Virus record (IMG/VR): IMGVR_UViG_3300025133_009608
Location: 248,001-312,000 of that record
Strand: one strand, 5' to 3'
DNA length: 64,000 nucleotides
Source: a virus
The notes beneath the pieces were generated by a model that saw only the letters and a program-made list of their open reading frames with translations, did no database searches and was not told where the DNA came from. Position 1 is the stretch's first letter. Every line of letters begins with the position of its first letter. Shown here in pieces: positions 12,013-29,442 of this stretch. Both the position numbers and the translations under genes were made by a program.

Positions 12013-12798
12013 TTATATTCCTAAATCTTTCATTTTCTTCTTTACAGAGGTGCAAGTATCTTTTGGTCCGGTTACCGGAAATGATTTATCTTCCAATAAT
12101 TTATGCATCGTATAGTCATTTCCTTCTGGGGTCATTCTATCTCCCCAGTAGTAAACATCGTATTCATTAAAAAATTGCATAGCGTATGTCTTGTCCCAGT
12201 TTTCGGGATAAATATCAAAACTAGTATCACCAGCGATAACGGCCGTAAGCTTTATTCCATTTTCATCTAAAAACTCTTGGAGCTCCCCGGCCCGAATCCC
12301 CCGCAGCCCTCGTTCTGCGTCAATTTCTTTAAACTTATCCCTATCGGCATCAGTTGCCATTCTCCCAATCGGGCACCAGTTTACTGTAGAGCCGCGATAC
12401 GTAATAAACGTCCCGGTTAGTGGAATATCATCGGCATCTTGCATAATTTCAGCTTGGGCGTATACCAGCTCGGTCATCAACTTTCTAAAGGCGACCTCTC
12501 CCAGGTGGGCTCGCAAATCTTCTTCTTTAATAACCTCATAAGAGATTTTTTCATCAGACTTTATAACGTTATAAGCCTTGGTTCCATTACAGGCCAGGGC
12601 ATAAACTTTAAAATCATGCGGCATTGCTAAAAATAACTCTTCGCACTGCTCTTTTAAAAAGTCCATATCCGAACCCGTAAGGATTCCGATCTCGATGGAC
12701 TTATTTGCTTTGGATAATAACTTTATAATCTTTTTTGTAACTTGTTTCCGAGACGCGCAAAGGGTGCCGTCCAGATCAAATAGGAATACTGTTTTCAT
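12013..12798 (-). CDS. Eukaryotic-type phosphomannomutase (HAD superfamily)
   Basis: This 261-aa protein matches the PMM1/PMM2-type family in length and motif order. It starts FLFDLDGTLCASRKQ (nucleophile and acid Asp), then GILTGSDMDFL, ALACNGTKAY, LTGTFITYRGSTVNWCPIGR, AGDTSFDIYPENWDKTYAM, YYWGDRMTPEGNDYTMH and TGPKDT. The family interconverts mannose-6-phosphate and mannose-1-phosphate, and often glucose phosphates, feeding GDP-mannose. Most bacteria use the unrelated ManB/AlgC type, so this form is unusual in a bacterial virus. It is the last gene of the sugar run and follows the cysteine synthase by one base. The catalytic residues look intact. Confidence 0.88.
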   Translation of the reverse strand: MKTVFLFDLDGTLCASRKQVTKKIIKLLSKANKSIEIGILTGSDMDFLKEQCEELFLAMPHDFKVYALACNGTKAYNVIKSDEKISYEVIKEEDLRAHLGEVAFRKLMTELVYAQAEIMQDADDIPLTGTFITYRGSTVNWCPIGRMATDADRDKFKEIDAERGLRGIRAGELQEFLDENGIKLTAVIAGDTSFDIYPENWDKTYAMQFFNEYDVYYWGDRMTPEGNDYTMHKLLEDKSFPVTGPKDTCTSVKKKMKDLGI

Positions 12799-12799
12799 T

Positions 12800-13654
12800 T
12801 TAAAATAACCTTTTTAAGTCATCATCAGATATATATCTTTCTCCACGATCGCAGATTATGGTTACGACTTCGCCGAAGATGCTTTTATTTAATCTAATTT
12901 GCTCGGCTGCCAGAACATTGGCCGCCGATGAAATACCAACTAGAACTCCCAACTCCCTGGACAGGGATATCATCTTTGACTTTGCATCTTCTGTTTTTAT
13001 CTTAAGTGTTGCATCAGCGTGCTCAGCATTCATCAGGTAATCTCCGCCATCGCCGATTCCCTGAATCCCGTGTTCCTCTTCTTCTGGGCGCATAAATATA
13101 AGCTTTGTATTTAAATCATTTTCTGCAACAAAAGCAGCGATCCCCATCATTGTCCCTCCGGTGCCGGCGCCGGATACAAAGGCTCCCCATGTGCTTTCGC
13201 CTAATTGCCTAAATATCTCTTTTGCGGTTGTATTTTTATGGCATTGTATATTTAGTTTGTTTTCAAATTGCATGGGCGACCAAGCCCCCGCGGCTACAAG
13301 TTCATTTCTATACTTTATGGCTCCGGCGAAATCATATGGAGCAACTTCAATAATTTCAGCTCCAAAGAACCTCATCATGCTTCGCCTTTCTTCGGACATG
13401 TTAGACGGCATTATGATCTTTACCTCGTTCCCCAAGGTTGCCCCAATCGCAGCAAGAGATATGCCGGTATTCCCGGAGGTCGCCTCAACCAATATAGTGT
13501 CTTTCGAGATTGCATTATTTTTTAATGCATCTTCTACGATATATGAGATGATTCTATCTTTTATTGAGCCCGTGGGGTTATAGGTCTCAAGCTTTACAAG
13601 AATTCCGGACCTAAGTCTAACTAATGGTGTGTTTCCAATTAATTGTTTGAGCAT
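12800..13654 (-). CDS. Cysteine synthase (O-acetylserine sulfhydrylase family)
   Basis: This 284-aa PLP enzyme is slightly shorter than typical CysK/CysM (about 300-320). It opens QLIGNTPLVRL and carries the PLP lysine in PTGSIKDR, the substrate loop in EATSGNTGISLA, the phosphate-binding loop in SGAGTGGT, and VGISSAANVLAA near the end. It would make cysteine from O-acetylserine and sulfide. An O-phosphoserine or other beta-replacement substrate cannot be excluded. It lies inside the sugar cluster, between the epimerase and phosphomannomutase genes. With two sulfotransferase-like genes nearby it hints at demand for reduced or activated sulfur, though cysteine synthase does not make PAPS. Confidence 0.9.
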   Translation of the reverse strand: MLKQLIGNTPLVRLRSGILVKLETYNPTGSIKDRIISYIVEDALKNNAISKDTILVEATSGNTGISLAAIGATLGNEVKIIMPSNMSEERRSMMRFFGAEIIEVAPYDFAGAIKYRNELVAAGAWSPMQFENKLNIQCHKNTTAKEIFRQLGESTWGAFVSGAGTGGTMMGIAAFVAENDLNTKLIFMRPEEEEHGIQGIGDGGDYLMNAEHADATLKIKTEDAKSKMISLSRELGVLVGISSAANVLAAEQIRLNKSIFGEVVTIICDRGERYISDDDLKRLF

Positions 13655-13688: not shown

Positions 13689-14606
13689 TTAATATGAGTA
13701 GCTCGTCCCTAAGATTTTTTCTTCTATATTTTTGACCGGAGAATAGCCGAGAATTCCTTTAATCTTATCTATATTGGCGAGAGAGTGCTTTACGTCGCCT
13801 AATCGTTCGGCTTTAAATATTGGAGGCATAAGATCTAAAATCTCACAAAGCTGTAAAAGCGACATATTTTCCCCCCTGGCTACGTTGAAGGCTTCCCCAT
13901 TTAACTTTTCAGGATGCTCTGCCGCCAATATGTTCGCAGAAACAACACTTTCAACGGGGCAAAAATCTCGACTCTGCATTCCATCGCCATAAATTGTTGG
14001 ACGAACATTGTTTCTCTTGCAGACCGAAAACGCGGGCAAAACGGCCGCATAAGCCGAATCGGGGCGCTGCCTTGGCCCGATCACATTAAAATATCGCAAA
14101 CATGCGGTATCTAATCCCATTTCGGATGCATATAGTCGGCAATACCGCTCACCTGTTAGCTTCTGGAGAGCATATGGGGACCGAGGGTTGGGCTCGTCGC
14201 TCTCGCAGTTAGGAGGGCCGTCAGAGCCACCGTAAATAGACGATGAAGAAGAAAATACAAATCTTTCAACCTTATATTTTCTGGATAACTCCAAAAGCCT
14301 TACCGTTCCGTTTATATTTGTAAAATCAGAGAAAACCGGATTCTCAACGGAGGGGGCTACTCCAGACTTTGCGGCAAGATGAAACACGTACTTGATTTTA
14401 TGATTCTGAAAGGCTCTTTCTAGGTTATCAGAAGTTATATCATAAAGAGCCGGAATAAAATTTTCATGCCCAATATGAGATTCCAGAGTTGTTTGCAATC
14501 CAGAGCTTAAATTATCAACACCAATAACTTTATACTTATTGAGTAATTCGTCCGTAAGGTGTCCGCCGATAAACCCCGCAGATCCGGTAACTAATACTGT
14601 ATCCAT
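13689..14606 (-). CDS. NAD-dependent nucleotide-sugar epimerase, WbpP-like (UDP-GlcNAc C4-epimerase type)
   Basis: This 305-aa extended SDR has the NAD motif GSAGFIGGHL at residues 8-17, FHLAAKSGV, the catalytic Ser region SSSSSIYG and the catalytic YALQK. The segment LRYFNVIGPRQRPDSAYAAV followed by IYGDGMQSRDFCPVESVV closely follows the pattern of the WbpP/TviC group, which interconverts UDP-GlcNAc and UDP-GalNAc or their uronic acids. The SD is AAGGA, about nine bases before the ATG. Within this cluster it could set the gluco or galacto configuration of the amino-hexuronic acid. Exact substrate is inferred from subgroup resemblance only. Confidence 0.85.
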   Translation of the reverse strand: MDTVLVTGSAGFIGGHLTDELLNKYKVIGVDNLSSGLQTTLESHIGHENFIPALYDITSDNLERAFQNHKIKYVFHLAAKSGVAPSVENPVFSDFTNINGTVRLLELSRKYKVERFVFSSSSSIYGGSDGPPNCESDEPNPRSPYALQKLTGERYCRLYASEMGLDTACLRYFNVIGPRQRPDSAYAAVLPAFSVCKRNNVRPTIYGDGMQSRDFCPVESVVSANILAAEHPEKLNGEAFNVARGENMSLLQLCEILDLMPPIFKAERLGDVKHSLANIDKIKGILGYSPVKNIEEKILGTSYSY

Positions 14607-14623: not shown

Positions 14624-15285
14624 TTAAAACTTATATCCGAAATAATCTATATCTTTAGAATAAAGCTTTCGAATGAATTCTACCATTTCCTCATCATAAT
14701 AATCCTGGTATTTGTTGTTAAATTTTCGGTATGACGTTTTGAATTTTGGCAAACTTTTAGAATCAAACCTTCCAAGTTGTAATTTGTCAAAAACAACTGC
14801 TATATCATTATGTAAGTTTTCATATTTAATGTAGAAGTCACAAACTGGCTTGTCGTCTATAGTGTGAAGCTCCCAGTTGTTTAATTCTGACGCGTGCTTC
14901 TTCGAAAACAACTTAAATAAAGTCTTTGCATCGGCGAATTTATTAGCCTCCAGCTCTCTGCCTCCCACAAACCAGAATAAAGAAACGGCCCTATCCCACG
15001 GATTTCTTACGGCGGAAAATTTATAGTATGAATCAAATAATTCCGGTCCGATTTCCTTCTTTATCTTTGATGCGGGGCTATGCGGCCGCCACTGAGACCT
15101 CTTATTTATCCCATTCATTCTTCCTGCGATTATTCCATATTTTGATTCTTGCATATTGACAGAATCACCATTTTTTATGCTCTGCTTGGGGCCTATGCAA
15201 TATTTCTGAAAGACGCCTTCGACAGAACTTCCTCCGACTTTTTTATTCTTAATGTAAATGAACTTTTTCGATGTGATATTAGCAT
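14624..15285 (-). CDS. Sulfotransferase-like protein with an apparent frameshift near the 5' end
   Basis: From an internal ATG at 15154 the frame encodes 176 aa, including the 3'-phosphate-binding segment YKFSAVRNPWDRAVSLFWF of PAPS-dependent sulfotransferases. The same frame runs on upstream without a stop and encodes FIYIKNKKVGGSSVEGVFQ, which fits the 5'-phosphosulfate loop, so the true N terminus lies upstream. The only good start is the ATG at 15283-15285, directly abutting the preceding stop, but it is in another frame. One additional A in the five-A run at 15264-15268 (minus sense) would join ATG CTA ATA to the sulfotransferase frame and give about 220 aa, a normal length. Either the sequence has a homopolymer error, the gene is broken, or slippage is used. 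Confidence 0.7.
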
Positions 15286-16098
15286 TTAATCTTCGATAAT
15301 ATTTATAGAATCGGGCCTTAGTATATTCTTGGACTCAACCGCGGCCTCCAAGACTTTGCATATAGACTTTTCCCTCTTCATTTGCGCCAGAAGGGCATTT
15401 GTATCCTTCGGGAAGCAATGTCCAGAATAACTAAGTCCACCATCGGGGCCTGGAACATTTGTATGCATCTTTTCAACCCACGGGCCGAGCATTAAGTCTC
15501 TTACATTATTATAATCTATTCCAAGAGAATTGCATAGAAGATAATATTCATTAAATATTGAAACCTTAACGCTGTAATAGCAATTTCTCATAATCTTCAT
15601 TGCCTCCGACTCATCAGAAGTGCAGGCCGCGATTCTTGCCGACGGGTATAGTCTCTTATAGAACAATATCAGCCTATCGAACAGCTCAGACTTGCTAGAG
15701 CTTCCAATAACTATGTAATCTTGATTGTGAAAATCTTCAAATGCCGTTCTTTCGGTTAAAAACTCTGGATTATGAGCAATATTAAGCCCATACTTATTTG
15801 CCAGCGTCTTGGTTACACCGATTTCAACAGTAGACTTTATAACACAGAGCCCCTTGTAGTTGTTCTTTTTTAAAAGTTCAAGATTCTCTTCGATCGCAGA
15901 TAAGTCGAAGTGCTTGCCGCTTATAAATGGAGTCGGAAGGCAGAGAAACAGAATATCCGAATCTAGGACTGAATTAATCGTTCCTATTTTTTGAAACTTG
16001 TCGTATATAGCTGTGGTTACGCCATTTATTTTAAACGACTTATGCAATGCACTGCCAACAAAGCCATTCCCTATCTGTGCAATTCTCATCGTCATCAT
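15286..16098 (-). CDS. Compact UDP-glucose/UDP-GlcNAc 6-dehydrogenase-like protein
   Basis: This 270-aa protein shows the NAD-binding IGNGFVGSAL motif at the start, LCLPTPF, CVIKSTVEIGVT, AHNPEFLTERTAFEDF and the catalytic-Cys segment SGHCFPKDTNAL. These are the family signatures of UDP-sugar 4-electron dehydrogenases. Normal members are about 390-450 aa; this one stops shortly after the catalytic Cys and lacks the C-terminal UDP-binding domain. Either the N-terminal and central parts suffice in this compact form, or it partners with another protein. In this cluster it most plausibly oxidises C6 of UDP-GlcNAc (WbpA-like) to the uronic acid. It overlaps its upstream neighbour by four bases. 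Confidence 0.83.
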   Translation of the reverse strand: MMTMRIAQIGNGFVGSALHKSFKINGVTTAIYDKFQKIGTINSVLDSDILFLCLPTPFISGKHFDLSAIEENLELLKKNNYKGLCVIKSTVEIGVTKTLANKYGLNIAHNPEFLTERTAFEDFHNQDYIVIGSSSKSELFDRLILFYKRLYPSARIAACTSDESEAMKIMRNCYYSVKVSIFNEYYLLCNSLGIDYNNVRDLMLGPWVEKMHTNVPGPDGGLSYSGHCFPKDTNALLAQMKREKSICKVLEAAVESKNILRPDSINIIED

Positions 16099-16562
16099 TC
16101 CTTCCTACCGTTTAGGCGCGGGAAGCCTGCACTTTTATCGCCTGAAGCCCCAATAAATTTTATTATCTTCTCGGTAACGTCCTTATCTTTGAATATATCC
16201 AAGATCAAGAGCCTATCCATGGCGCCTGCGTCGGAAAAGGTCTTTATAACATCGCGATGGAACTCGAGCATATCGGGAAGCCCCTCGTGATTAGAGAACC
16301 GCCTCACCGAGCGTGTCCAGGCTGCACTGTCCCTGATGGTTAATATAAATCCGCTGCTATTCGACTCGGCCAGCAGCTCTTCGTATCTTTGGTATAGCGA
16401 ATTATCGATTACCGCAACTGCATCAAGATTTGCGACATTCGGAGTGCCACCGGTGAGCATGCACTTGTGCTCAGACGAAACCCCAAGCTCAAAAAGATAT
16501 GCGGCCAAGCTGGTAGTCCCCGTCCTTGGAAGCCCAATTCCATATATGGCCGTGTAATTCAC
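16095..16562 (-). CDS. Small sulfotransferase-family protein
   Basis: This 155-aa protein begins YGIGLPRTGTTSLAAYLFELG, a clear P-loop-like 5'-phosphosulfate-binding motif. FILTIRDSAAWTRSVRRF at about residue 73 corresponds to the 3'-phosphate-binding segment. It is short compared with typical members (200-300 aa) but both nucleotide-contact elements are present. It should transfer sulfate from PAPS to a hydroxyl or amino group, in this context most likely of a sugar. It is coupled by four-base overlaps to the WlbA-like gene before it and the dehydrogenase after it, which places sulfation in the same programme as sugar synthesis. Confidence 0.75.
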   Translation of the reverse strand: MNYTAIYGIGLPRTGTTSLAAYLFELGVSSEHKCMLTGGTPNVANLDAVAVIDNSLYQRYEELLAESNSSGFILTIRDSAAWTRSVRRFSNHEGLPDMLEFHRDVIKTFSDAGAMDRLLILDIFKDKDVTEKIIKFIGASGDKSAGFPRLNGRKE

Positions 16563-17452
16563 ATCACGCTCTTTGCGATTTCATTGACCACCACTAGAGA
16601 CTCCATTGCATCGTCTATTCCGAACCCGTTGCCAGATAATACTTCTTTATACGAAATTGTATGCAAATCTGTGAATCCGCCGCTAAACTCAACACTTTGG
16701 TTGTCAATCGTTATTTTTCTAAAAGCAGGCTGACCGGCAGCGATAGATTCTTTTGGAAGATCATTTTCATCCGTACTCAGCCTCCATTTTACGTTTGCTC
16801 TCTCTAGAATCAGGGTTCCAGAGACGCTTGATGAATACTTGCTTTCGACTATGTTTTCAACCGGCGACCCAAAAATCCATATTAACATATCGAAAAAATG
16901 TATACCAATATTTGCAGCAAGACCTCCCGACTTAGACTCCTGTCCCTTCCATGACTGGCAATACCACTTGCCTCTTGACGTTATATACTCAAGATTTACA
17001 TCGACAACTTTTTTGGAGTTATTATATCGGCTCTTTATGTCTATAATGGCCGGATGATGACGAAGCTGCAAAATGCAATTTACTGTTCTTCCCGTCTCTC
17101 TCTCTATCTCTTTCAAATATTGCAAGTTACCTGCCATTACAACCAGTGGCTTTTCGCAAATAACATCACAATCGTTACGAAGCGCCAGCCTTATATGCGA
17201 ATCATGCAAATAATTTGGCGAACAAATACTTATGTAGTCTATTTTGCCACTTGTTCTTCTCAGCTTGTCGACGTGTCTATCAAATCTCTCGATTTCGGTA
17301 AAAAAATCTGCCCCTGGAAAGTATGAATCAATAATTCCAACGGAATCAAATGGGTCAATTGCCGCTACCAAGTCGCAGTTGTTGTCTTTTATTGCTCGCA
17401 TATGCCGTGGGGCTACATATCCAGCGGCACCGATGAGTCCAAACTTTTTCAC
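16559..17452 (-). CDS. WlbA/WbpB-type oxidoreductase (UDP-GlcNAcA 3-dehydrogenase, Gfo/Idh/MocA family)
   Basis: This 297-aa protein starts FGLIGAAGYVAPRHMRAIKD and continues DSVGIIDSYFPGADFFTE, DYISICSPNYLHDSHI, CDVICEKPLVV and ILQLRHHPAII. This series is highly characteristic of WlbA/WbpB rather than of Gfo/Idh enzymes in general. The known reaction is NAD-dependent oxidation of C3 of UDP-N-acetylglucosaminuronate, recycling NADH with 2-oxoglutarate. It is followed directly by the sulfotransferase and dehydrogenase genes and preceded by the DegT aminotransferase with an ATGA overlap, the same partners as in Bordetella wlb and Pseudomonas wbp clusters. It is somewhat shorter than the bacterial enzymes (about 315 aa). 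Confidence 0.9.
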   Translation of the reverse strand: MKKFGLIGAAGYVAPRHMRAIKDNNCDLVAAIDPFDSVGIIDSYFPGADFFTEIERFDRHVDKLRRTSGKIDYISICSPNYLHDSHIRLALRNDCDVICEKPLVVMAGNLQYLKEIERETGRTVNCILQLRHHPAIIDIKSRYNNSKKVVDVNLEYITSRGKWYCQSWKGQESKSGGLAANIGIHFFDMLIWIFGSPVENIVESKYSSSVSGTLILERANVKWRLSTDENDLPKESIAAGQPAFRKITIDNQSVEFSGGFTDLHTISYKEVLSGNGFGIDDAMESLVVVNEIAKSVM

Positions 17453-18549
17453 TTTTTACTTCCATAATTAAAGAAAAGATTAATATTATGAGATATATAC
17501 TCCAATTCATCTGCTTTTAGCCCAGGATAAATAGGGAGTGATAAGACCTCATCGCAGGTCTTTCTCGACTCCAGCAGGCCGTCTGAGTCTGCGAACGCCG
17601 AATAGTCACAAAGAGGTGCCGGATAATATATATTCGAGGGGATCCCATTGTTGTATAAAAACTTTTTCAAATCGTCCCTTCGACTTGTTCTTATTGTGAA
17701 CTGATTAAAAGAGTGTAGGCTACATTTCTTTGGCAAAACAATGTTTTCGATATCACCTATAGCATTAAAGTAAAATCTAGCATTCTCCCTTCTCTTTTCA
17801 ATCCATTCGTCCGCTTTCTGAATTAATACTGATAAAAATGCAGCCTGCAATGCATCCAGCCTATAGTTTCCGCCAGTAATTTCATAGTTATACTTTGATG
17901 ACATGCCATGTTTTCTAATCATTCTTAGTCGTTGATCGACCCCCCCGTCGCCCGTGGTAACCGCGCCCCCGTCCCCAAGGCATCCTAGATTTTTTGCCGG
18001 AAAAAAACTAAAACTGCTCGCTATCCCGAAGCTTCCATTTGGGGCACCATAAGATTGAGCACAATCCTCTATAAGATGGATCCCCCTATCTCTGCATGCA
18101 GCCGATAGACTGCTTAGATCGCTATACTCTCCAAACAGGTGAACAAAGATTACCGCCTTCGTAGCTCCCGTGCAAGAGTTCATTATTCCATCGACAGACG
18201 GGGAAAAGGATCCTGGAGCAAGGTCTACAAAAACAGGAGTCAGACCCGCTTTTGAGATAACCGATGCAGATGATATAAACGTAAAAGCCGGGACTATAAC
18301 CTCAGATCCCGGTGGTAAGTCGAGAGATGTTAATATCGCAGTTAATGCGTCTGTGCCGTTCGACACTCCAACGCAATATTTCGACCCAACTTTTCTGGAA
18401 AAAATATCCTCAAAAAGCTCAACTTCGGAGCCTAAGATAAAGTTTCCATGCTCAAGGCACCTCTCCAGGCATCCGACCAGCTCTTTCCTGCTGCCGCTTA
18501 ACATTTTTGAAAAATTAAAAAAATCAATATTTGTATCTATTTTTTCCAA
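17449..18549 (-). CDS. DegT/DnrJ/EryC1 aminotransferase, WlbC/WbpE-like
   Basis: This 366-aa PLP aminotransferase shows GNFILGSEVELFE, VGVSNGTDALTAIL, VIVPAFTFISSASVI, PVFVDL, HLIEDCAQSYGA and the PLP-lysine segment SFFPAKNLGCLGDGGAV. Length and motifs match the sugar aminotransferase family. Next to the WlbA-like gene its likely substrate is the UDP-3-keto-GlcNAcA made by that enzyme, giving UDP-2-acetamido-3-amino-2,3-dideoxy-glucuronate. The start overlaps the upstream amidotransferase-like gene by 13 bases and the stop overlaps the WlbA-like gene by four. Catalytic residues look intact. Confidence 0.9.
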   Translation of the reverse strand: MEKIDTNIDFFNFSKMLSGSRKELVGCLERCLEHGNFILGSEVELFEDIFSRKVGSKYCVGVSNGTDALTAILTSLDLPPGSEVIVPAFTFISSASVISKAGLTPVFVDLAPGSFSPSVDGIMNSCTGATKAVIFVHLFGEYSDLSSLSAACRDRGIHLIEDCAQSYGAPNGSFGIASSFSFFPAKNLGCLGDGGAVTTGDGGVDQRLRMIRKHGMSSKYNYEITGGNYRLDALQAAFLSVLIQKADEWIEKRRENARFYFNAIGDIENIVLPKKCSLHSFNQFTIRTSRRDDLKKFLYNNGIPSNIYYPAPLCDYSAFADSDGLLESRKTCDEVLSLPIYPGLKADELEYISHNINLFFNYGSKK

Positions 18550-19394
18550 AAAACCTCTCCATTAAATGCTATACTATCGTGCGGAACTTTAAAGATATCG
18601 AGCCATATGTTAAATTGGCAAAAAAACATTTTCTGCCTCTTGCTTTTCGGCTCCACCGCGAACCCCTTTGCTCTCAATGCCTCGACGTGCTTGTCAATTA
18701 TGTCGTGGTCTACCCACTCCATAATAAAGCCACTTTTATCTCTAAATACAAAGTCTTTAGAGAAATCTTCTAAAAGTAATTCTTTTATTATCTTTTTGCC
18801 AAAAGACTCTTTGTTGTATTCTTGCAAATCACGATCCAAGAATGGGTACCGTCCTTCGATGTCAAATTTTAAGCCCATTTTATCATTTTTCCGAAGGTGA
18901 TGAAAAATAAGAAGATTCTTATCGTGATGTAGCTTGTCCTGGTTGGTTTTCGCAGAAATCTCTGCGAAAAGCCCTCTGGGATACTCTTCCGTGTCATAAT
19001 ATGAGTACCCGCCATATAACTCATCGGATCCTAGTCCGCTTATGCTTACTCTTTTTTGTTTTTTATTAATCTCACGATAAAGAAAATATCCAACCGATAC
19101 CCAGTAAAACGGCTCCTCCCATATTCTCACTATTTCATATAAATAATCTTCAAAAGAGTCTATCCTGTGAGAGAAGTAATGTACATTTATTCCATATTTA
19201 TCTTCAACAATTTTAGCATACTTATCGTCGCCATAGCACAAGAAGAGGCAATCCTCTTCTCGCCCTAGCTCGCACACCGCCTTCACTATGAGTGAGCTGT
19301 CGAGCCCTCCCGATAGTGGCACAGCGCAGTTCTTGGTTATCCTTTTTTCGACTGCTATTTTAAAGTTTTTATAGTATTTTTGCGCTACTGACAT
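18537..19394 (-). CDS. Asparagine-synthase-like protein, C-terminal ATP-pyrophosphatase part
   Basis: This 285-aa protein carries the PP-loop CAVPLSGGLDSSLIVKAV, then SISGLGSDELYGGYSYYD and GRYPFLDRDLQEY, all typical of the synthetase domain of AsnB-like enzymes. It starts with a helix that normally follows the glutaminase domain. The glutaminase domain is encoded just upstream in another frame, with a 26-base overlap. Removing one A from the five-A run at 19377-19381 would fuse both into one protein of about 460 aa. Relatives such as WbpS-like proteins amidate sugar uronic acids, which suits this cluster. It may be a naturally split enzyme or a sequence error. Confidence 0.8.
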   Translation of the reverse strand: MSVAQKYYKNFKIAVEKRITKNCAVPLSGGLDSSLIVKAVCELGREEDCLFLCYGDDKYAKIVEDKYGINVHYFSHRIDSFEDYLYEIVRIWEEPFYWVSVGYFLYREINKKQKRVSISGLGSDELYGGYSYYDTEEYPRGLFAEISAKTNQDKLHHDKNLLIFHHLRKNDKMGLKFDIEGRYPFLDRDLQEYNKESFGKKIIKELLLEDFSKDFVFRDKSGFIMEWVDHDIIDKHVEALRAKGFAVEPKSKRQKMFFCQFNIWLDIFKVPHDSIAFNGEVFWKK

Positions 19395-21493: not shown

Positions 21494-21970
21494 TTATTTA
21501 ATCTTTATTTTATAAAATTTTGCCGGGGACCCAAACCAGACTTCTTTATCTGGGATGTTGCTTCGAACCTGAGAACACGCGCCAATAATACAATCGCTTC
21601 CTATCTCAAATCCAGGCATGAGAGTTACGTTCGCCCCAATGAGCGTTCCGTTTCCAATCCCCACAACCATCTTCTCGTCGTTCCTGCTCAAGTCTGCCGT
21701 GTCTGTCAGCACAAACCCATATTTTATTAAAACATTAGAGCCGATAACGGCGTTCGCAGAGATTGTACACCTACTTCCAAACGATGTTCCATCACCTATT
21801 GTGACATTCTCCCGAATCTCACAATAGGCCGTAAAACTACAGTTTTTTCCAATTTTTGACCCACTTCTTATGATACAAAATGGGCCAACCTTGGTACCGT
21901 CCCCAATCTCAACTCCATCTTCAATATATGCAAGCGGATGTATTTCCAAATTTCTTCCCAAATCTCTCAC
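21494..21970 (-). CDS. Hexapeptide-repeat (left-handed beta-helix) acyltransferase
   Basis: This 158-aa protein is built of hexapeptide turns from the start: IHPLAYIEDGVEIGDGTKVG, then IGKNCSF, VTIGDGTSFG, AVIGSNVLI, VGIGNGTLIG and SDCIIGACSQV. It ends in VWFGSPAKFYK, the usual C-terminal sugar O/N-acyltransferase signature (G-x-PAK). It starts at GTG, overlapping the stop of the next upstream gene by one base. In a cluster with WlbA- and WlbC-like enzymes, it is a candidate for the WlbB/WbpD N-acetyltransferase step on the 3-amino group, though its sequence is not specific enough to prove that. Confidence 0.8.
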   Translation of the reverse strand: MRDLGRNLEIHPLAYIEDGVEIGDGTKVGPFCIIRSGSKIGKNCSFTAYCEIRENVTIGDGTSFGSRCTISANAVIGSNVLIKYGFVLTDTADLSRNDEKMVVGIGNGTLIGANVTLMPGFEIGSDCIIGACSQVRSNIPDKEVWFGSPAKFYKIKIK

Positions 21971-22485
21971 TATGCGCCCCCCTCGGCCGTCTGCCGATCT
22001 AGTTTTCTAATTATTTTCGCCGGAGAGCCATAAATAAGCACTTCATTTTCATAAAACGATGAAGTGACTACAGAGCCCATCCCTATTATATTTTTGCTAC
22101 CCAGCACAGCCCTATTTCTAATGCAACAGTTTATTTTTATCTTGTTTAAGCTGCCAATTTTACAAAATCCAGCCAAAATCGCTCGCACTCCGATTTCATT
22201 TTTGTCCCCAATTAAAACATCGTGGCCAATATTCGAGTAATTCATTATAAAATTTCCAGACCCTATCGCTGTATCGCTCTCTGCTCCGGACATTATAGAG
22301 ACATGAGCTCCAATCCAATTATCATCTCCAATTACAACCCCGCAAACATCATCGGGGCCGCTACTGGTAAACCCCGGCAGACCTATAACTGCGTATGGGT
22401 ATATTATATTTCCAGTTCCAATCACAACGTTATCGCAAATAATCGCCGTACTATGAATCTTGTTTCCATCTATAAAACTCCACAT
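21970..22485 (-). CDS. LpxA-like hexapeptide-repeat acyltransferase
   Basis: This 171-aa protein shows IHSTAIICDNVVIGTGNIIY, PYAVIGLPGF, VVIGDDNWIGAHVSI, SNIGHDVLIGDKNEIG and ILIYGSPAKIIRKL-like ends, with an overall turn order like the LpxA/UDP-GlcNAc acyltransferase group. Its His in NIGHDVLIG is positioned like the catalytic His of those enzymes. It lies between the two-domain glycosyltransferase and the second hexapeptide protein. Having two acyltransferases fits a diamino sugar needing two acyl groups or one sugar plus one O-acetylation. The exact acceptor is unknown. Confidence 0.78.
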   Translation of the reverse strand: MWSFIDGNKIHSTAIICDNVVIGTGNIIYPYAVIGLPGFTSSGPDDVCGVVIGDDNWIGAHVSIMSGAESDTAIGSGNFIMNYSNIGHDVLIGDKNEIGVRAILAGFCKIGSLNKIKINCCIRNRAVLGSKNIIGMGSVVTSSFYENEVLIYGSPAKIIRKLDRQTAEGGA

Positions 22486-23868
22486 TTACTTGATCATCTC
22501 CAAGATTCTACTACGCTCATCATCCGTCAGCTCTCTATTATTCGATGTTTTTAATATCTGCTTAAGAGTGGTTCTATTCCCCTCTGTCTTTATATCTACA
22601 ATTATACCATTTATATCCTTCATGCTCAGGACCGTCTGGCTCTTGATTGATTTCAATTTTTTAGACCAAAGCTTTCCATCGGGAGAGTTATTCGCGTCGT
22701 CTGGCCATAAATTTGGACCAATTCTTTCAACCAATGACCGACTGAGGCATCGCCCGGGGGCGAGCGGCTCTGTTGATCGCCCTCCCTTGTACCCAAATGT
22801 ATATGCCCCAGTCTTGGACTTCATATCGTAAAAGTACAAGTCGCCCCAACTTATTAAATCATATGACATTGCCTTGGTCTTCAGTTCGGAAAAAACTTCC
22901 TTGGAAATTAAATCATCACTGCCTAACAGGATTATGTGGGTGTATTGCTTGCTCTTTATGAACCACTTTATTCTGGCATTAAACTTCCGTCCAAGTGGCT
23001 TATTTTTCTCCTCGACGTAGTGGCACCCGAGACTTTTTGATAGCAACTCCGATCTGCGACCCTCACTTCCGACTGCCAATATATCTGCAAATTGACTATT
23101 ATTCTTTACGAACAGCCTAAATACATCCTCTCTTCTCCAGATTGGGGTAGCTATCAATGGCCGGAACTCGCTACGTGGCGGTGGGAGCTTTCTTTTGCTC
23201 TTATTCCTCAGAGAACTAGACAGACCCTTGGAGGCTCCGTTGTAAGCTTTTTTACTTATATAACTTCCGTCCATTTTCCACTTTCTTTTTAGATATCCGA
23301 CGAAGTGTCTTGCTCCAGCGTCACTTCCGAATTTTCTCATCTTCTGTGTATACTCATAATATTTTGAAAATGCTATAGCTGCCGTCGGAGCCGAATCGTG
23401 GTCCCCGAGTACTTTGGATATTTCAACATTTTGGTACCCCAACTTCGCAGCTCTTTTTGCAAAGTCTCGGTCACCACCCAGAACATCTCTAAACTCTAAC
23501 TGCTGCAGCGCCTCAGAGCTCCATAGCTTCAATGAGCCAATCTTCTTCTCTAAGAATAAATCATATAATAACGAGGAGGCATTAAGAATTTTTACTCCAT
23601 CTGCTTCTTTCTTTTTTGCGAACTTGAGCAGCTCAGTGATAGCATTTTTCTTAAGATACATGTCCTCATCTATCTGAAGGCACCACTTGGTACCAACACA
23701 CGCATTTCGCATAGTGTTTAGCCACGCAGATTGTGGCGACTTATTTTTAATAACCACAACTTCAACAACATTTGGGCTCTCAGCGGCTAATTCATCTATT
23801 ATCTTCTTGCAGCGAGCAAACGTTGGAGACCCAACCGTTCCGATGCATATTGTTATTGAGTCACCCAT
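22486..23868 (-). CDS. Two-domain GT-A-type glycosyltransferase
   Basis: This 460-aa protein has an N-terminal family 2-like domain: ITICIGTVGSPTFARCKKII, VVVIKNKSPQSAWLN, CLQIDEDMYLKKNAI (DED as the metal site) and FRDVLGGDRDFAKRA. A basic linker at about residues 205-235 follows. The second domain, from about 240, has LIATPIWRREDVF, AVGSEGRRSELL, PLGRKFNARI, IILLGSDDLIS and EPLAPGRCLSRSL, closely paralogous to the 332-aa protein two genes downstream. Two catalytic domains suggest addition of two linkages or a polymerising activity. Stop and next start abut (TAA then ATG). Confidence 0.75.
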   Translation of the reverse strand: MGDSITICIGTVGSPTFARCKKIIDELAAESPNVVEVVVIKNKSPQSAWLNTMRNACVGTKWCLQIDEDMYLKKNAITELLKFAKKKEADGVKILNASSLLYDLFLEKKIGSLKLWSSEALQQLEFRDVLGGDRDFAKRAAKLGYQNVEISKVLGDHDSAPTAAIAFSKYYEYTQKMRKFGSDAGARHFVGYLKRKWKMDGSYISKKAYNGASKGLSSSLRNKSKRKLPPPRSEFRPLIATPIWRREDVFRLFVKNNSQFADILAVGSEGRRSELLSKSLGCHYVEEKNKPLGRKFNARIKWFIKSKQYTHIILLGSDDLISKEVFSELKTKAMSYDLISWGDLYFYDMKSKTGAYTFGYKGGRSTEPLAPGRCLSRSLVERIGPNLWPDDANNSPDGKLWSKKLKSIKSQTVLSMKDINGIIVDIKTEGNRTTLKQILKTSNNRELTDDERSRILEMIK

Positions 23869-24791
23869 TACGCTCTATCCTTCAAGAAATTATCAAACAA
23901 GGTTTGAGCCCTGCTGTCCGGGAAGTGATTATCTCTAGCATACTTAGCAATTTTATTATAAGAATATTTATTATTATTTAATTTATTTCCCTTTGAAATC
24001 ATATCTTTCTTTCCGGAAAATACCTCCCCCAAGAATGGATTGCTCATTACTATTTTAGCTTCCGGAATATTTCTCTCAATGAGGACCGGCATTCCGGCAC
24101 CTATGTACTCAAAGAATTTTGACGAACTTTCTCTCTGAAGCTTCTTGCTTCCTAGCGGATAAATTGACGGGACAAACCCAGCAAAGTAGTGGCCACGATT
24201 TAGCTCCTGATAGAGCTTGCTATGGCTTTTCGGCTCCAAAATTAAAGAACCTGGAATTTTAGACTGCACGAATTCTATATTCTCCTTAAATCCTGGAGAG
24301 CTCCTGGTGAATCTCAATATACTTTTCCCTCGCCAGTATTTTATCGGATAAACCCCAAAGCTAATTCCCGAGGCATTCATTGTCTTTATCTTTGCTTCAG
24401 CCAAGGGAGAGAGTCTTCCCAAGTAGGCCATTCGCACCCGGTCCGTGGTGGCTATTTTTATATCCCTATCTCCATGGCAGTAATTCATTAAAATAAACTG
24501 ATTATTTTTTGGAGCAGGGTATGGGGATATCGAGCAGGCTGTATCTACCCCGGTCATATCGAATCCGCACTCGGTAATCTTCAAAGTATATTTCGAACTA
24601 ATCTTTCTCCTTAGAGGCGTTCTGTCAATAATTGCGAAATCATACTTTAAATCATAATCATTAATAAAGGATTCAAATTCACATATTTTATGCAATTCTT
24701 CAACTATCTTTCCAATCTTACATGGAGAGCAGTGATAGAGCCCGCCTCTACCATAGTTGCCGGAATATCTTGAGAAGATTCCAATCCTCAC
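23868..24791 (-). CDS. Glycosyltransferase-like protein (GT-B type, tentative)
   Basis: This 307-aa protein has an N terminus (MRIGIFSRYSGNYGRGGLYH) resembling the start of the donor or acceptor fold in GT-B enzymes. A C-terminal stretch SSSKFFEYIGAGMPVLIERN matches the conserved FEYxxxGxP nucleotide-binding segment of GT-B enzymes. The middle has no hallmark I can name. It overlaps its neighbours by one and four bases in the glycosyltransferase run. Relationship to characterised enzymes is unclear, so donor and linkage are unknown. Confidence 0.6.
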   Translation of the reverse strand: MRIGIFSRYSGNYGRGGLYHCSPCKIGKIVEELHKICEFESFINDYDLKYDFAIIDRTPLRRKISSKYTLKITECGFDMTGVDTACSISPYPAPKNNQFILMNYCHGDRDIKIATTDRVRMAYLGRLSPLAEAKIKTMNASGISFGVYPIKYWRGKSILRFTRSSPGFKENIEFVQSKIPGSLILEPKSHSKLYQELNRGHYFAGFVPSIYPLGSKKLQRESSSKFFEYIGAGMPVLIERNIPEAKIVMSNPFLGEVFSGKKDMISKGNKLNNNKYSYNKIAKYARDNHFPDSRAQTLFDNFLKDRA

Positions 24792-25726
24792 TTCAATACC
24801 TCTTCGAAAGCTTCGCCCCAGCGCTCTTTGTATTCTTTAATTCCAAACACTTTGATCGCCCTGGCTCGACCGGCCGCGCTCAGCTCCGCTTGCAAATCTT
24901 TTGACCCCAAAATTCTCTTACACGCCGCTAACATATCTTCCTTCGTATCTGCAAAAAGACAGTCTCTCCCGCCCCTTAGGTGCCTGCTTATTCCATGATT
25001 ATTAGTTGTGACTAGCGGAGCCCCGCACATCATTGCCTCGACCCTGCTGCGAGGCATAGCGCTTCGCACAGTGGAATTCAGGCAAACCCCATACTTATTA
25101 TATTTTTGCACTAATTTCTTTAACGGAAAGTTTCCAATACTCTCGGGCAGGTCCTCGTCTCCATGGCCAACCAAGTCGCACAAGCCAGTCTTTTCGGAGA
25201 CATACCTCCACTCATCAAATCCTAATATTGCCCCTCTTTTTTCGAATACATTCGCTACGGTCAAGATCCTATCATTTCTTTTCAGCTTCATATCGCAAAA
25301 TTCATCCGGATCAAATCCGTGGGGGATGTAAAAATGTTTTTTTCCAGGCAAGTTTTTATAATTCTTATCCATCGCATATTTGGAATTCCACACAACCACT
25401 CTGGCCCACCTTGGAATAGAAAAGGGAGCATCCGTCTGAACTACGGCAATTCCCGGTGCGCGATGCCTTCTTCGAAATGGCTCAAGCCTTTTTGCTCCCG
25501 GTGACACGCGAACCATAATAATATTATATTTTCGCGTCATTAGTGCGCGCTCTTTTGCGGCAACGATGTTCGCCTTATCTCCGCTAATAGCTGGTCGGCC
25601 GAAGTCCTCATCGGTCGGGGCACGGCCGTTGAGTTTGGTGCACCAAAATCGAGGACCAGTCTTAAAGAACTCATATTGATGCCCGCCATGAACGAGCCAA
25701 TCCATAATTTCCAATTTTTCAACCAT
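24788..25726 (-). CDS. Glycosyltransferase, GT-B group 1-like
   Basis: This 312-aa protein starts with a short domain including DWLVHGGHQYEF. Later come VVVWNSKYAMDKNYK, YIPHGFDPDEF, ILTVANVFEKRGAI, and SRVEAMMCGAPLVTTNNHGIS, the conserved EAMxxGxPxVxT block of group 1 glycosyltransferases. LFADTKEDMLAACKRIL follows as usual. Length is at the short end of the family. It overlaps the upstream GT4 gene by eight bases. Donor specificity cannot be read from sequence. Confidence 0.8.
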   Translation of the reverse strand: MVEKLEIMDWLVHGGHQYEFFKTGPRFWCTKLNGRAPTDEDFGRPAISGDKANIVAAKERALMTRKYNIIMVRVSPGAKRLEPFRRRHRAPGIAVVQTDAPFSIPRWARVVVWNSKYAMDKNYKNLPGKKHFYIPHGFDPDEFCDMKLKRNDRILTVANVFEKRGAILGFDEWRYVSEKTGLCDLVGHGDEDLPESIGNFPLKKLVQKYNKYGVCLNSTVRSAMPRSRVEAMMCGAPLVTTNNHGISRHLRGGRDCLFADTKEDMLAACKRILGSKDLQAELSAAGRARAIKVFGIKEYKERWGEAFEEVLK

Positions 25727-26831
25727 AGTTTTTAAACCGATCTTTCTTTAAAATTTCTTCAATTCTACTCCCGACGGCCTCTATTGTCATGGTTTTTGAT
25801 ATATTTTTTGCGTTAATGACCTTGTCGGCTATGTCTTCGTTATTCTCGAATACGTTTCTCATATTTTTGCGCAAAGAAGAGGTGGAGGGATATGCCCAAT
25901 TCTGAGTCTTATTGTATAATGGCTGCCAGCCCATGCCCTTCACTGGGCCGATTTTGTGAGCAATTATATTTGCGCTATTTTCATCTAAAAATTCTGTTAT
26001 CCCGCCGAACTTTGTAGTTATCAAATGATTCCCGGCCTCAATGGCATCATGAATCGGCATCCCCCATCCTTCGCCGCGATGCGGAGCCACATAGCAGTCG
26101 CCATAATTATGAATTGCTTTAATTTGCTCAAATGGAATTTTTTCGTCAATTAAGTATACTTTTGGATAAAACTTTTTATTTAGTCTTCTCTTTATATTTA
26201 TAATATCAAGATAAATCTGCTCTTTTTTGTACTTATCCGGATCGAGCTTGCTGGTTTTTATAAGCAATAAAACCTTATCCTTCCGGGCGAACTCGTTGTA
26301 ATAGGCCGTTAGTAGCTCTTTGTACCCCTTTCTCTCGTGCCATTGAAATATAGAATAAAACTTAAATACATCATCCGATATTAAAAGCTCAGAAGTTGCC
26401 GGGGACGGAACCGCCACAGTTAGCGCTGAGGAGCTCCAGATGGACGGGGTTGGCACGACCTCTATGTGACCTTTAAAGCCAGCCCTGCGACAGGCTGTGG
26501 CGACCAGTTCGCATGGTGCCCATATCTCATCCAAAAACTTTATAGAACTACGCCAAGGCGTGGGCAAAGCATCCGCCTCCCAGTAGAAATAGCCTATTTT
26601 ATAATTATTTGACTTATGCTGGCTAAAGGGTGGCATATTCAAATATAAATCAATTTTGGGCGAACCAGAAAAGTTATTTAGCTTGATGTTAAAATCCGAA
26701 GGGCTTGAGCTTAATTCAAATTTTGTATTTACATCCGACCCAGACAACGCGAGTGCAAAAGCTCTACTGGCATTTGCATACCCAGAGGGGCCCGAGGTTT
26801 TTGCGAAATATCTTATTGAAGGCAGAGGCAT
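25719..26831 (-). CDS. Glycosyltransferase family 4-like protein
   Basis: This 370-aa protein begins IRYFAKTSGPSGYANASRAF. Landmarks include IGYFYWEADALP, IWAPCELVATACRRAGF, VVPTP, FYSIFQWHERKGYKELL and VAPHRGEGWGMPIHDAIEAG, the last being the typical E-x7-E donor-binding region of GT4 enzymes. The stop and the next start show the tight coupling of the run, and its own start overlaps the upstream stop by one base (TGATG). It resembles glycosyltransferases found in other large phages and in capsule loci. The transferred sugar is unknown. Confidence 0.8.
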   Translation of the reverse strand: MPLPSIRYFAKTSGPSGYANASRAFALALSGSDVNTKFELSSSPSDFNIKLNNFSGSPKIDLYLNMPPFSQHKSNNYKIGYFYWEADALPTPWRSSIKFLDEIWAPCELVATACRRAGFKGHIEVVPTPSIWSSSALTVAVPSPATSELLISDDVFKFYSIFQWHERKGYKELLTAYYNEFARKDKVLLLIKTSKLDPDKYKKEQIYLDIINIKRRLNKKFYPKVYLIDEKIPFEQIKAIHNYGDCYVAPHRGEGWGMPIHDAIEAGNHLITTKFGGITEFLDENSANIIAHKIGPVKGMGWQPLYNKTQNWAYPSTSSLRKNMRNVFENNEDIADKVINAKNISKTMTIEAVGSRIEEILKKDRFKNYG

Positions 26832-28390
26832 CAGACGTACCTACCCACTAGAATCTCAGAATCTCCATCATTTCTCTTGTAAAATACAGAATCCGGAAGA
26901 ACCCCAGATAAAAACTTAGCGGATATATCCTTTATATCATGATTATCTCTAACATACTTTGATGCAGCTCTAACTACATCGCTATTTTCGATATTTTCAG
27001 ATATCAATAAAGCATTTTCAGATTCAATATCACCGATAAAAAATCCATTAACTCCATTCGAAATAATATCTGGAATCCCTCCAACTTTAGGCATAAAAAC
27101 CGGAACTCCGGATGCCATAGCTTCAAGCATTGAAATGGGAGTTCCTTCCATTGTTGATGTAGAGAGAAATGCATCAAATAATGAGTAATATTTATGCACA
27201 TCCCTCTTATGTCCGAAAAACCTAACGTTCTCCCCTGCGGCCTGCCTTAGTCGTCCAAGCTCGGGGCCGGAGCCTATAATTAAAAAGGTAAAATCCTTCA
27301 TTTTTTTAGCAATATCTAAAACTCTATCTATATTTTTCTCAGATGAAAGCCTTGAAACAACTCCCACAGTCGGCCGATTGATTGGAAGATTATTTTGGAC
27401 CCGAAACTCTCTCCCATCCCGATTGCAAAATCTGTCTAGATCGATCCCAACTGGTATAGTTGTGACTCTATTCTCTTCGACTCCTTCGATATCAAGACAC
27501 AAAGATGATGATACTTTAAATATCTGATCAACTCCTCTTCTCGACTTTATGCTCGAGACCGAATCAGACCACTCGAAGTCGCTATGATAAATTTCAATTA
27601 TTCTAGATGATATCGCACCAGTAGACACCAGCGCAGAGATCTTCTCGTAAACCCTTTTGCTATTATAATAAATAACAACATCGTAACCTCTTGAGGAGAT
27701 AAGCGCCCCGAGACGATCAACGCCGCCAACCCTGGTGTGCTTTACTCTCTTATTGCTGCAAGCTCCGACGAGCGGATTTTTCCCAAGATATAGTAGTTCT
27801 ATAGAAAGCATTTTGGAGTCTATATTGTCCAATATGCTCTTTATATATATCTCTGCCCCTCCATAAATTCCATACGGGATGACGATGGCCAATGTGCTTG
27901 GGTCGGCGGTCCCAAATCTCGAAAGCAACTCTAGATCTGTTCGTTTTATGCTATTTTGTTTGCTCTTTTTCTTTTTTATCGGAAGCGCTCGGCTCGAAGA
28001 TATGACGACTCTTCCAATTTCCACTCCACCGATTGCCCCACCGGGTCTAGTTATTCTTATTTTTCCAAAAAAAGGCTCCGGCGCAGAAATCGGAAAAGAA
28101 GACTCCGACCAACTCGTGCTAGATAGTGAAATTTTTTCATCCAACAATATTATATTATCTTTCGACAAAATCTGGAGCCTCGCTGGGCCGTTTCCCGAGC
28201 GCTTCCGCCCTATAACCTTTATCCTTCCTTCGGCCGGTATCCTTGCCGGGTGCTCTGCGATTCCCCTGGGATTTAAATGAACGGTCTTCTCTGTCCCAAC
28301 ACGAATCCCGCTTCCAAACCATTTAAAATCCCTAGCGGAGTCGAAATCTCTCATACTAGGTCCAAGATTTGATTTGCTGCATTTTCCCAA
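26831..28390 (-). CDS. Glycosyltransferase family 4-like protein with an N-terminal beta-rich extension
   Basis: This 519-aa protein has a catalytic part from about residue 170: LAIVIPYGIYGGAEIYIKSI, TVGVVSRLSSEKNIDRVL, FLIIGSGPELGRLR, VRFFGHKRDVHKYY and TSTMEGTPISMLEAMASGVP, a complete GT4 set. The first 150 residues are rich in strands and Gly/Ser/Arg (for example GRIKVIGRKRSGNGPARLQI) and resemble a jelly-roll or carbohydrate-binding module. A Lys-rich linker (KKKKSKQN) follows. The extension could hold the acceptor, such as a tail protein or growing glycan. It overlaps the upstream gene by 40 bases. Confidence 0.8.
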   Translation of the reverse strand: MGKCSKSNLGPSMRDFDSARDFKWFGSGIRVGTEKTVHLNPRGIAEHPARIPAEGRIKVIGRKRSGNGPARLQILSKDNIILLDEKISLSSTSWSESSFPISAPEPFFGKIRITRPGGAIGGVEIGRVVISSSRALPIKKKKSKQNSIKRTDLELLSRFGTADPSTLAIVIPYGIYGGAEIYIKSILDNIDSKMLSIELLYLGKNPLVGACSNKRVKHTRVGGVDRLGALISSRGYDVVIYYNSKRVYEKISALVSTGAISSRIIEIYHSDFEWSDSVSSIKSRRGVDQIFKVSSSLCLDIEGVEENRVTTIPVGIDLDRFCNRDGREFRVQNNLPINRPTVGVVSRLSSEKNIDRVLDIAKKMKDFTFLIIGSGPELGRLRQAAGENVRFFGHKRDVHKYYSLFDAFLSTSTMEGTPISMLEAMASGVPVFMPKVGGIPDIISNGVNGFFIGDIESENALLISENIENSDVVRAASKYVRDNHDIKDISAKFLSGVLPDSVFYKRNDGDSEILVGRYV

Positions 28391-29442
28391 GTAAACTTTT
28401 TGAGCGTCTCTTTTCTTTCATCCGAGAATTCATCTAAAATTATAGCCTTATTGAGATACATGCGCTTCATCTTATCGGCCAGGTCTTCAACCTCTGGGAC
28501 CCATATTTTTGCCCCGGGGGATGCCCTCCAGTATTGATACTTATCTCCGGCAGCAATCTCTCTGACATCTACGAGCAAGCTATTTTTCTCATTTAAAAAG
28601 TCTAGATGGCCAGAACAATTTGGAGCTATAACCGGAAGACCAGCGGCCATTGCCTCTAAAAACGGAAGGCCGAATCCCTCTGCCGAAGTTGCGCTAACAA
28701 GCGAATCACAAGAATTATAAAGAGGAATCAGGCTGTCATACTTTCTTTGTACGATTTCAATCTGAGGAAGACTTTTTCCTTTGTGCTTTTTTTGTACTTT
28801 TACAATCTCTTTTGCAATATCACATTCAAATTTAAATTTTGGCTTCTTCAGAGAGGTCTTTATTATCAGGCAAACGTCATCGGAAGCAGAAAATGCAGAA
28901 TAATAAGCATCAACCAGCATTCCTATGTTTTTTCTGTGATGCGCTATAGACACGTTAAGAAACTTAAATGATTTATTGGTCTTGATCGAATCTAACTTGT
29001 CTTTTCGGTCAAAATCTTCAATATTTATTCCATGAGGAACCACTATGCATTTATCTTCAGGCCAGCCAGATTCTACAAATACCTTTTTAGAGTATGAACT
29101 CGACGGCAAGACGTAATCCACATGCTTTATCTCGGGGAGCCAAACCCCCGGTAGGATACTGGACTCGTAATTATATATTGCAAGCTTTAAGTTTGACTTG
29201 CCGCGAAATCGCTCTTTAAAGTTCCGAGGGAGGGTATATGTGATGTCTATGTCCGGATCTTTGACCTCTCTCTTTGTCTTTTTCATCCAATCTGGCGGAA
29301 ACATTTCATACCCGTTTATTGAATTAAGATATAAGTCATGACCCTTTGCATCAAACTGAGCAAGAAGGCTTCTGATTGTTACGGCCCAGCTATGGCTGGT
29401 TCCGAGCATGGCTTTGCTTCTGATCTTTAACGTCTTGGGCAT
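28351..29442 (-). CDS. Glycosyltransferase family 4-like protein (first gene of the glycan run)
   Basis: This 363-aa protein begins with a basic KTLKIRSKAMLGTSHSWA region. Later come YNYESSILPGVW, VDYVLPSSSYSKKVF, VVPHGINIEDF, FKFLNVSIAHHRKNIGMLVD and SATSAEGFGLPFLEAMAAGLP, the standard GT4 donor-binding block. It is the first sugar gene after the 1517-aa structural gene, with a 51-base gap in which I see no convincing terminator or copy of the promoter-like motif. That suggests read-through from the tail genes into the glycan genes. Confidence 0.82.
   Translation of the reverse strand: MPKTLKIRSKAMLGTSHSWAVTIRSLLAQFDAKGHDLYLNSINGYEMFPPDWMKKTKREVKDPDIDITYTLPRNFKERFRGKSNLKLAIYNYESSILPGVWLPEIKHVDYVLPSSSYSKKVFVESGWPEDKCIVVPHGINIEDFDRKDKLDSIKTNKSFKFLNVSIAHHRKNIGMLVDAYYSAFSASDDVCLIIKTSLKKPKFKFECDIAKEIVKVQKKHKGKSLPQIEIVQRKYDSLIPLYNSCDSLVSATSAEGFGLPFLEAMAAGLPVIAPNCSGHLDFLNEKNSLLVDVREIAAGDKYQYWRASPGAKIWVPEVEDLADKMKRMYLNKAIILDEFSDERKETLKKFTWENAANQILDLV

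Follow-up and report, generated by a model that had tools for sequence, protein, structure and literature searches.

The Wbp pathway of Pseudomonas aeruginosa (WbpA/B/E/D) makes UDP-GlcNAc3NAcA, and Porphyromonas gingivalis combines Wbp/Vim enzymes with WbpS, which makes a uronamide, for a linking sugar (PMC7468200). T4-like cyanophages carry sugar or 'LPS' (lipopolysaccharide) clusters of sugar-nucleotide enzymes and glycosyltransferases (GTs) that are polymorphic among relatives (PMC7824862), and Mimiviridae and chloroviruses carry glycogene clusters, with a conserved core and virus-specific decoration, whose virus-encoded enzymes act in the cytoplasm and make glycans that sit on virion proteins (PMC9614988, PMC4691112). 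Mycobacteriophage GTs are thought to glycosylate structural proteins, and glycans have been shown on their capsid and tail tube (Freeman et al. 2023, as cited in PMC12619734). Taken singly, sugar clusters in phages, glycosylation by viral enzymes and the Wbp pathway are not new. Here we describe an island of sugar genes immediately behind the tail genes in a 64,000-nucleotide stretch (the window) that spans positions 248001-312000 of a 316,664-base IMG/VR jumbo myovirus record (IMGVR_UViG_3300025133_009608, here G000).

The island resembles each of these systems in part. In common with the Wbp systems, it clusters WbpB- and WbpE-like enzymes, a hexapeptide acyltransferase, a putative C6 dehydrogenase and an AsnB-like amidotransferase. 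Unlike them, it is phage-borne, its dehydrogenase has two domains, its AsnB-like enzyme is split and lies nearer a generic model, and no Wzx or WbaP was found. Like the cyanophage clusters, it combines sugar-nucleotide enzymes with GTs and differs among relatives, but it belongs to another jumbo lineage, has a fixed place behind the tail and lineage-wide edges, and includes sulfotransferase-like, nonulosonate and diamino-uronate genes. A conserved core with virus-specific decoration, and genes for bacterial-type rare sugars and for sulfate, are features that it has in common with the giant-virus clusters. The window phage has genes for a whole predicted sugar pathway, whereas glycans themselves have been demonstrated in mycobacteriophages and, on capsid or fibrils, in the unrelated eukaryotic giant viruses. 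Moraphages, compared by their description in PMC12619734, are metagenomic jumbo phages whose core genome includes four GT orthogroups, and for which glutamine synthetase, UvsW and PhoH are reported; in the parts of that account consulted, neither a glycan island nor tail adjacency was found. An O-antigen-like island that keeps its place behind the tail genes throughout a phage lineage, with conserved edges and exchanged sugar genes, was not found described in the open-licence literature (weak evidence of absence), and the literature on phage sulfotransferase or glycosylation islands held nothing closer.

Conserved edges and an exchanged middle

The locus is O-antigen-like and hypervariable: conserved flanks enclose central sugar genes that are exchanged among relatives. 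It is set between the tail genes and a block of GMD, GT-tubulin and helicase genes in one large uncultivated jumbo myovirus lineage. In the window, 20 close-packed genes at 12013-29442 encode sugar-nucleotide enzymes, acyltransferases, sulfotransferase-like proteins, a methyltransferase and seven GTs, with spacing between neighbours mostly of -40 to +5 nt (exceptions 17, 34 and 131 nt). These genes, and those for GlmS, T1517 and the baseplate J protein discussed below, all lie on the minus strand. Beyond the window the island reaches ~G000:233333 and includes a GMD-like dehydratase, another sulfotransferase-like protein, further GTs and a GT-tubulin fusion. A second IMG/VR contig (L005) repeats the cluster sequence over 20,810 nt with 0 mismatches. 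Domain searches recovered, on the minus strand and at the stated positions, every gene class named in an earlier reading made from the letters of the window (the sequence-only reading), including GlmS, glucosamine-6-phosphate synthase, at 5364-7187 (SIS 1.2e-38 plus GATase).

For edges and middle, reciprocal best hits were determined between the window phage and 10 other genomes (11 in all). GT363 (28351-29442), a GT4-type enzyme next to the tail, and the three GTs of the conserved left edge, GT519 (GT4, 519 aa; 26831-28390; Glycos_transf_1 1.8e-25), GT370 (GT4, 370 aa; 25719-26831) and GT312 (GT-B, 312 aa; 24788-25726), are common to 9-10 of the 10 other genomes (GT370 to all 10, GT519 and GT312 to 9 each). 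The conserved right edge holds a short UDP-sugar 6-dehydrogenase (UGD; 15286-16098) and a NAD-dependent UDP-sugar 4-epimerase (13689-14606), both common to 9 of 10; a GMD-like gene and GT320 are common to 8 of the others and the GT-tubulin protein to 7. The eleven genes from GT307 through sulfotransferase-like protein 2 are common to only 0-2. In their place, other members carry NeuB, GT29 sialyltransferase-like, DAHP/KdsA and GT11 genes (Pfam-verified), genes for carbamoyltransferase, pyruvyltransferase, RmlD, FkbM and methyltransferases, and, by similarity, NeuA-, RmlA/RmlB- and WbqC-like genes.

UGD and epimerase are core genes, found with or without the WbpB/E genes. The diamino-uronic acid genes on which the sequence-only reading centred are thus present, yet they are not what defines the locus: they belong to its strain-specific middle and are replaced in other members. 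One further contig (L185), found through its WbpB-like gene, has the order DegT, sulfotransferase 2, hexapeptide, WbpB, UGD, epimerase, GlmS, GMD, GT320, GT2, GT-tubulin. Its membership of the lineage rests on gene order, as no baseplate J match was found on the contig. With the window phage, this makes at least two such loci that hold the diamino-uronic cassette, which lies outside the lineage core. The GlmS gene lies immediately after the UGD-epimerase pair in L185 and in the relative G001.

The place of the island is as constant as its edges. A profile of the baseplate J protein (44523-47831; Baseplate_J 8.1e-26, PHROG baseplate wedge 5.8e-43), used as lineage marker, yielded 77 loci in IMG/VR, on contigs of up to 480 kb. 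T1517 (29494-34047), the conserved tail-region protein that adjoins the island, was located in 28 of the 32 longer records, and the DNA behind it was examined in 23; with the window phage, G001 and G002 this gives 26 members. In all 26 a GT363 orthologue lies behind T1517, directly in 18 and after one or two small open reading frames (ORFs, at least 90 aa) in 8. About 24 of the members are independent, since G007/G009 and G010/G011 look like near-duplicate pairs. T1517 identity is 41-55% in closer relatives and ~30% in distant ones, where the placement of GT363 also held. The check suggested with the sequence-only reading, whether related phages have the cluster next to tail genes, therefore comes out in its favour throughout. 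In five distant members (G022, G023, G025, G026 and G031) the locus is minimal: GT363, a few genes, an RmlB-like gene, GT-tubulin and helicase.

No cultured relative was found, isolated phages giving only remote baseplate J matches. Bacillus phage G was set aside, with a distant baseplate protein and an annotation without an adjoining GT cluster. T1517 and GT312 had no match among 50,697 phage records.

Two further features of these loci are of separate interest. Two small GT29 sialyltransferase-like proteins sit beside KdsA- and NeuA-like genes in G002 (L053:2119-2775; contig 67552-68166), the first matching at 3.4e-21 and the second judged by eye. The GT-tubulin protein, encoded on the minus strand just outside the window at G000:236212-238635 (L055:8212-10635), fuses a GT domain to a tubulin/FtsZ GTPase (Tubulin 2.7e-14, Glycos_transf_1 4e-12). 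It is fused also in G001 and G010, and its halves match two adjacent ORFs in G006, G013, G014 and G028.

Predicted sugar pathway of the window phage

The gene content supports the view that the phage encodes its own route of glycan assembly, and the likely branch is Wbp-type: a WbpA/B/E/D-type route to a 2,3-diamino-uronic acid is the best reading of the genes. It is favoured by the homology to WbpB and WbpE and by the clustering of the same enzymes in bacteria and in other phages, and on both counts the sequence-only reading has held up. The putative WbpB/WlbA-type UDP-sugar 3-dehydrogenase (16559-17452; GFO/IDH/MocA 3e-18) has WbpB as its best solved relative, aligning over its full length with PDB 3oa2 (residues 1-296, 326 bits, 1.9e-96); its relatives are 44-62% identical in phages and 51-60% in bacteria. 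The adjoining gene encodes a WbpE/WlbC-type DegT aminotransferase (17449-18549; DegT 4.7e-86) with its pyridoxal phosphate (PLP) lysine in FFPAKNLG. It matches WbpE structures at ~207-210 bits, with QdtB and others higher.

The cluster also encodes two hexapeptide acyltransferases. The first (21494-21970; Hexapep 3.5e-33) is a WbpD-like candidate whose relatives sit close to WbpB/WbpE genes in bacteria and phages; the second (21970-22485; Hexapep 7.6e-19) is NeuD-like. Among 80 bacterial loci with a WbpB-like gene, a hexapeptide acyltransferase is nearby in 55 and DegT in 51. Several other viral contigs have the WbpB-like gene, DegT, hexapeptide and a short UGD (264-271 aa) in a single run, two of them with WecB. 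Compact runs on the contigs L186, L187 and L189 combine genes for a hexapeptide acyltransferase, a GT, WecB, DegT, a WbpB-like enzyme and a short UGD, which amounts to an almost complete Wbp pathway; on these contigs no relative of the baseplate J protein of the window-phage lineage was found.

The UGD itself (270 aa; PF03721 plus PF00984), with the motif GHCFPKD, is a two-domain form, a correction to the sequence-only gene list; the domain search gave no match to the C-terminal UDP-binding domain. It matches UGD structures and keeps the active-site residues K168, N172, C228 and D232, which are invariant among its relatives. Damage as the cause of its shortness was rejected, because relatives keep these residues and many phages have comparable short forms. 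The epimerase (WbpP/TviC/GalE-like; Epimerase 3.1e-57) matches 6dnt, 4zrm and 1sb8 (WbpP, 171 bits) in PDB.

The AsnB-like enzyme, listed earlier as one gene, is encoded by two genes that overlap in different frames: a synthetase half (18537-19394; Asn_synthase 1.1e-23) and a glutaminase half (19369-19908; GATase_7 8.4e-26). Class II amidotransferases require a Met-Cys-Gly-Ile-type start, and the glutaminase half is best read from a GTG just before TGC, which gives Met-Cys-Gly-Ile. The class II glutaminase and ATP-pyrophosphatase motifs are intact (MCGI via the GTG, SGGLDSS, GLGSDE), spread over two polypeptides. A frameshift or assembly error was set aside as the cause of the split because L005 is base-for-base identical, although that contig and the window record may share one phage population and the pair occurs in no diverged relative. 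Membership of the WbpS-type family eps_aminotran_1 (TIGR03108) failed, the halves scoring 90 and 46 bits against a whole-protein cut-off of 817, and the generic asparagine synthase model TIGR01536 outscores it for both. For this reason amidation of the uronic acid, which had been proposed by analogy with WbpS, is something that we infer: an AsnB-like partner is in keeping with the P. gingivalis case (PMC7468200), and amidation is plausible but not established.

Sulfation, also proposed earlier, is likewise plausible. Two divergent sulfotransferase-like proteins are encoded in the cluster and more in relatives. Protein 2 (155 aa; 16095-16562; Sulfotransfer_4 5.5e-11) has the P-loop GLPRTGTTSL. 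Protein 1 (14624-15154; Sulfotransfer_2 1.2e-7, PHROG galactose-3-O-sulfotransferase 3.2e-11) would have one only given a non-standard start: its open frame extends upstream towards 15286 and includes the P-loop-like stretch FIYIKNKKVGGSSVEGVF, and this upstream frame has no ATG, GTG or TTG start, only ATC, ATT and ATA candidates. A broken gene is one possible reading of protein 1. Sulfation is not established, no adenosine 5'-phosphosulfate (APS) kinase having been found in nine lineage records; 3'-phosphoadenosine 5'-phosphosulfate (PAPS) would thus come from the host. An S-adenosylmethionine-dependent methyltransferase (19905-20501; Methyltransf_11 4.3e-12) adjoins the pair of AsnB-like genes.

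The count of seven GTs given in the sequence-only reading is right, with two of the seven weakly supported. One of these (460 aa; 22486-23868) is GT2-like at 1.7e-4, under the Pfam cut-off, and has a 62% relative in G010. The other (332 aa; 20491-21489), probably GT-A-like, has no Pfam match and is related, at 34% similarity, to the C-terminal half of the first; its predicted model had low confidence (pLDDT 43) and was left unused. GT307 (307 aa; 23868-24791; Glyco_trans_1_2 0.003), a GT-B enzyme, also has a relative in G010.

Two genes at 12013-13654 were missing from the sequence-only list: one for a phosphomannomutase-like HAD-IIB phosphatase (261 aa; 12013-12798; Pfam PMM 2.1e-32, HAD-SF-IIB) and one for a PLP enzyme of the cysteine synthase family (284 aa; 12800-13654; PALP 7.5e-56; cysKM 247 bits, under the curated cut-off). 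The latter, together with the AsnB-like pair, the methyltransferase and the sulfotransferase-like proteins, resembles tailoring enzymes, and a metabolite cluster has been proposed in cyanophages (PMC7824862). The genes could accordingly make a diffusible glycosylated or amino-sugar metabolite, such as an antibiotic or signal, instead of a virion polymer. We consider this very improbable: no carrier protein and no nonribosomal peptide synthetase or polyketide synthase genes were noticed, the conserved part consists of four GTs, UGD and epimerase, and the fixed place behind the tail would be left unexplained.

Candidate acceptors of the glycan

A simple hydropathy scan of 425 island and flank ORFs from 11 genomes found none with more than 3 predicted transmembrane (TM) segments. 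In the nine records, no match was found to the initiating phosphoglycosyltransferase PF02397 or to the ThyA-family hydroxymethylase PF00303, the positive control ringing for each. Multi-TM proteins like Wzx/Wzy were not seen, the Wzx and Wzy families not having been searched individually. Taken together, these absences speak against a locus that makes a surface polysaccharide unaided, and also against DNA glycosylation of the best-known type.

The first of these points bears on the possibility that the island alters the host surface during infection (O-antigen, capsule or S-layer glycan) with a lipid carrier, flippase and polymerase taken from the host; keeping out rival phages or releasing new virions could be the purpose. 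Comparable sugar clusters of cyanophages have been interpreted in this way (PMC7824862), and the variable nonulosonate, 3-deoxy-D-manno-octulosonate (Kdo) and rhamnose genes are typical of surface polysaccharides. However, neither an initiating phosphoglycosyltransferase nor a Wzx/Wzy-like multi-TM protein was found, and a fixed tail-adjacent place across a very diverse lineage is unexpected for a host-directed function. We regard a host-surface role as unlikely but far from negligible, and as second in probability to the reading given below.

Alternatively, the sugars may go onto phage DNA: modified bases would receive hexuronic acids or amino sugars from the GTs, as a protection against restriction. 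DNA-directed phage GTs are common, and short UGDs occur also in phages such as Bacillus phage SP-15, whose DNA is hypermodified with a glucuronate-containing group. That no ThyA-family hydroxymethylase was found in the nine records speaks against such a role; an ADDT search lacked a positive control and so does not rule it out. At least seven GTs, sulfotransferases, acyltransferases and cassette exchange are, moreover, too much for the decoration of bases, and we judge this alternative improbable.

The preferred reading places the glycan on the virion. GT363 yielded an AlphaFold2 model of pLDDT 95.5, and its best solved fold match is the GT B736L of chlorovirus NY-2A (E 1.1e-16), with many ordinary GT4 enzymes next; Microcystis and Streptomyces phage GTs that resemble it sit in different gene contexts. 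The absent export and initiating genes, the GT363 fold, the parallels with giant viruses and the fixed place behind the tail together favour a soluble pathway that glycosylates virion proteins, probably those of the tail, as the role of this O-antigen-like hypervariable island. We hold this to be modestly probable, with T1517 as a candidate acceptor.

Under the mechanism that we propose, GlmS and a GlmU-like uridylyltransferase, both encoded by the phage, would supply UDP-GlcNAc. The short UGD, judging by its motifs, would oxidise C6 to give the uronic acid, and the strong homologies suggest oxidation of C3 by the WbpB-like enzyme and amination at that position by the WbpE-like one. Acylation of the amine by a hexapeptide enzyme would follow, by homology, and the carboxylate may be amidated by the split AsnB-like pair. 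Further decoration of the sugar could come from the methyltransferase and from the sulfotransferase-like proteins, the latter with host PAPS. Finally, the oligosaccharide would be assembled in the cytoplasm by the four core GTs and the strain-specific ones, straight on a non-membrane acceptor, likeliest a virion tail protein, with GT363 as the candidate initiating enzyme. By extension, swaps of the central cassette may alter a tail coat of phage-made glycan as O-antigens are altered, a serotype-like switching in the contest with hosts or competitors; this extension we offer tentatively.

Several points weigh against a virion acceptor and a self-contained pathway. Flippases and polymerases could be borrowed from the host, so that missing phage export genes are not proof, and the records themselves may lack sequence. 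The GT4 fold is a generic one, with matches of GT363 to PglA, BshA and glycogen synthase as well, so the fold does not identify the acceptor, and the acceptor of B736L is itself unproven (PMC9614988, PMC4691112). Ser/Thr-rich regions suited to glycosylation are not conspicuous in T1517 or the other tail proteins, and sulfation would depend on the host. The acceptor is thus one that we infer, a glycan on tail proteins not being established.

If virion glycosylation is the role of the island, bacterial viruses would have in it an equivalent of the capsid glycosylation of giant viruses, kept over a very diverse lineage. Few examples of virion glycosylation are known in phages, and their large sugar clusters have so far been interpreted as modifying the host surface; the island offers a concrete test site for phages that build and vary their own glycan coat. 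It is also a source of unusual sugar enzymes, among them the two-domain UDP-sugar dehydrogenase, the split AsnB-like amidotransferase and the sialyltransferase-like phage enzymes.

Neighbouring genes

According to domain searches, the contractile-tail region in the window includes baseplate J, a sheath initiator and very long tail proteins. One of these, of 3472 aa (34102-44520), has a laminin-G/ConA-like domain close to its C-terminus. Its best matches in G001 and G002 span only ~residues 1-1780, which suggests a variable distal part similar to a receptor-binding tip.

Within the island, at 8564-11950, a 1128-aa protein combines PARP and NUDIX domains. A motif like ISRLHKIA stands at its N-terminus and in three internal copies, and also starts the ORFs at 4955-5314 and G000:192983. 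Near the N-terminus, such motifs occur in 4 ORFs, against 0.5 expected from shuffles, and they are perhaps cleavable head-packaging signals.

Elsewhere in G000, genes recognised by eye encode a GlmU with the uridylyltransferase domain only (129322-130059), glutamine synthetase (122876-123991), a PurA-like protein (107823-108842), IMP dehydrogenase (103441-104511), seryl-tRNA synthetase (32551) and two GroEL-like proteins (64668 and 116808).

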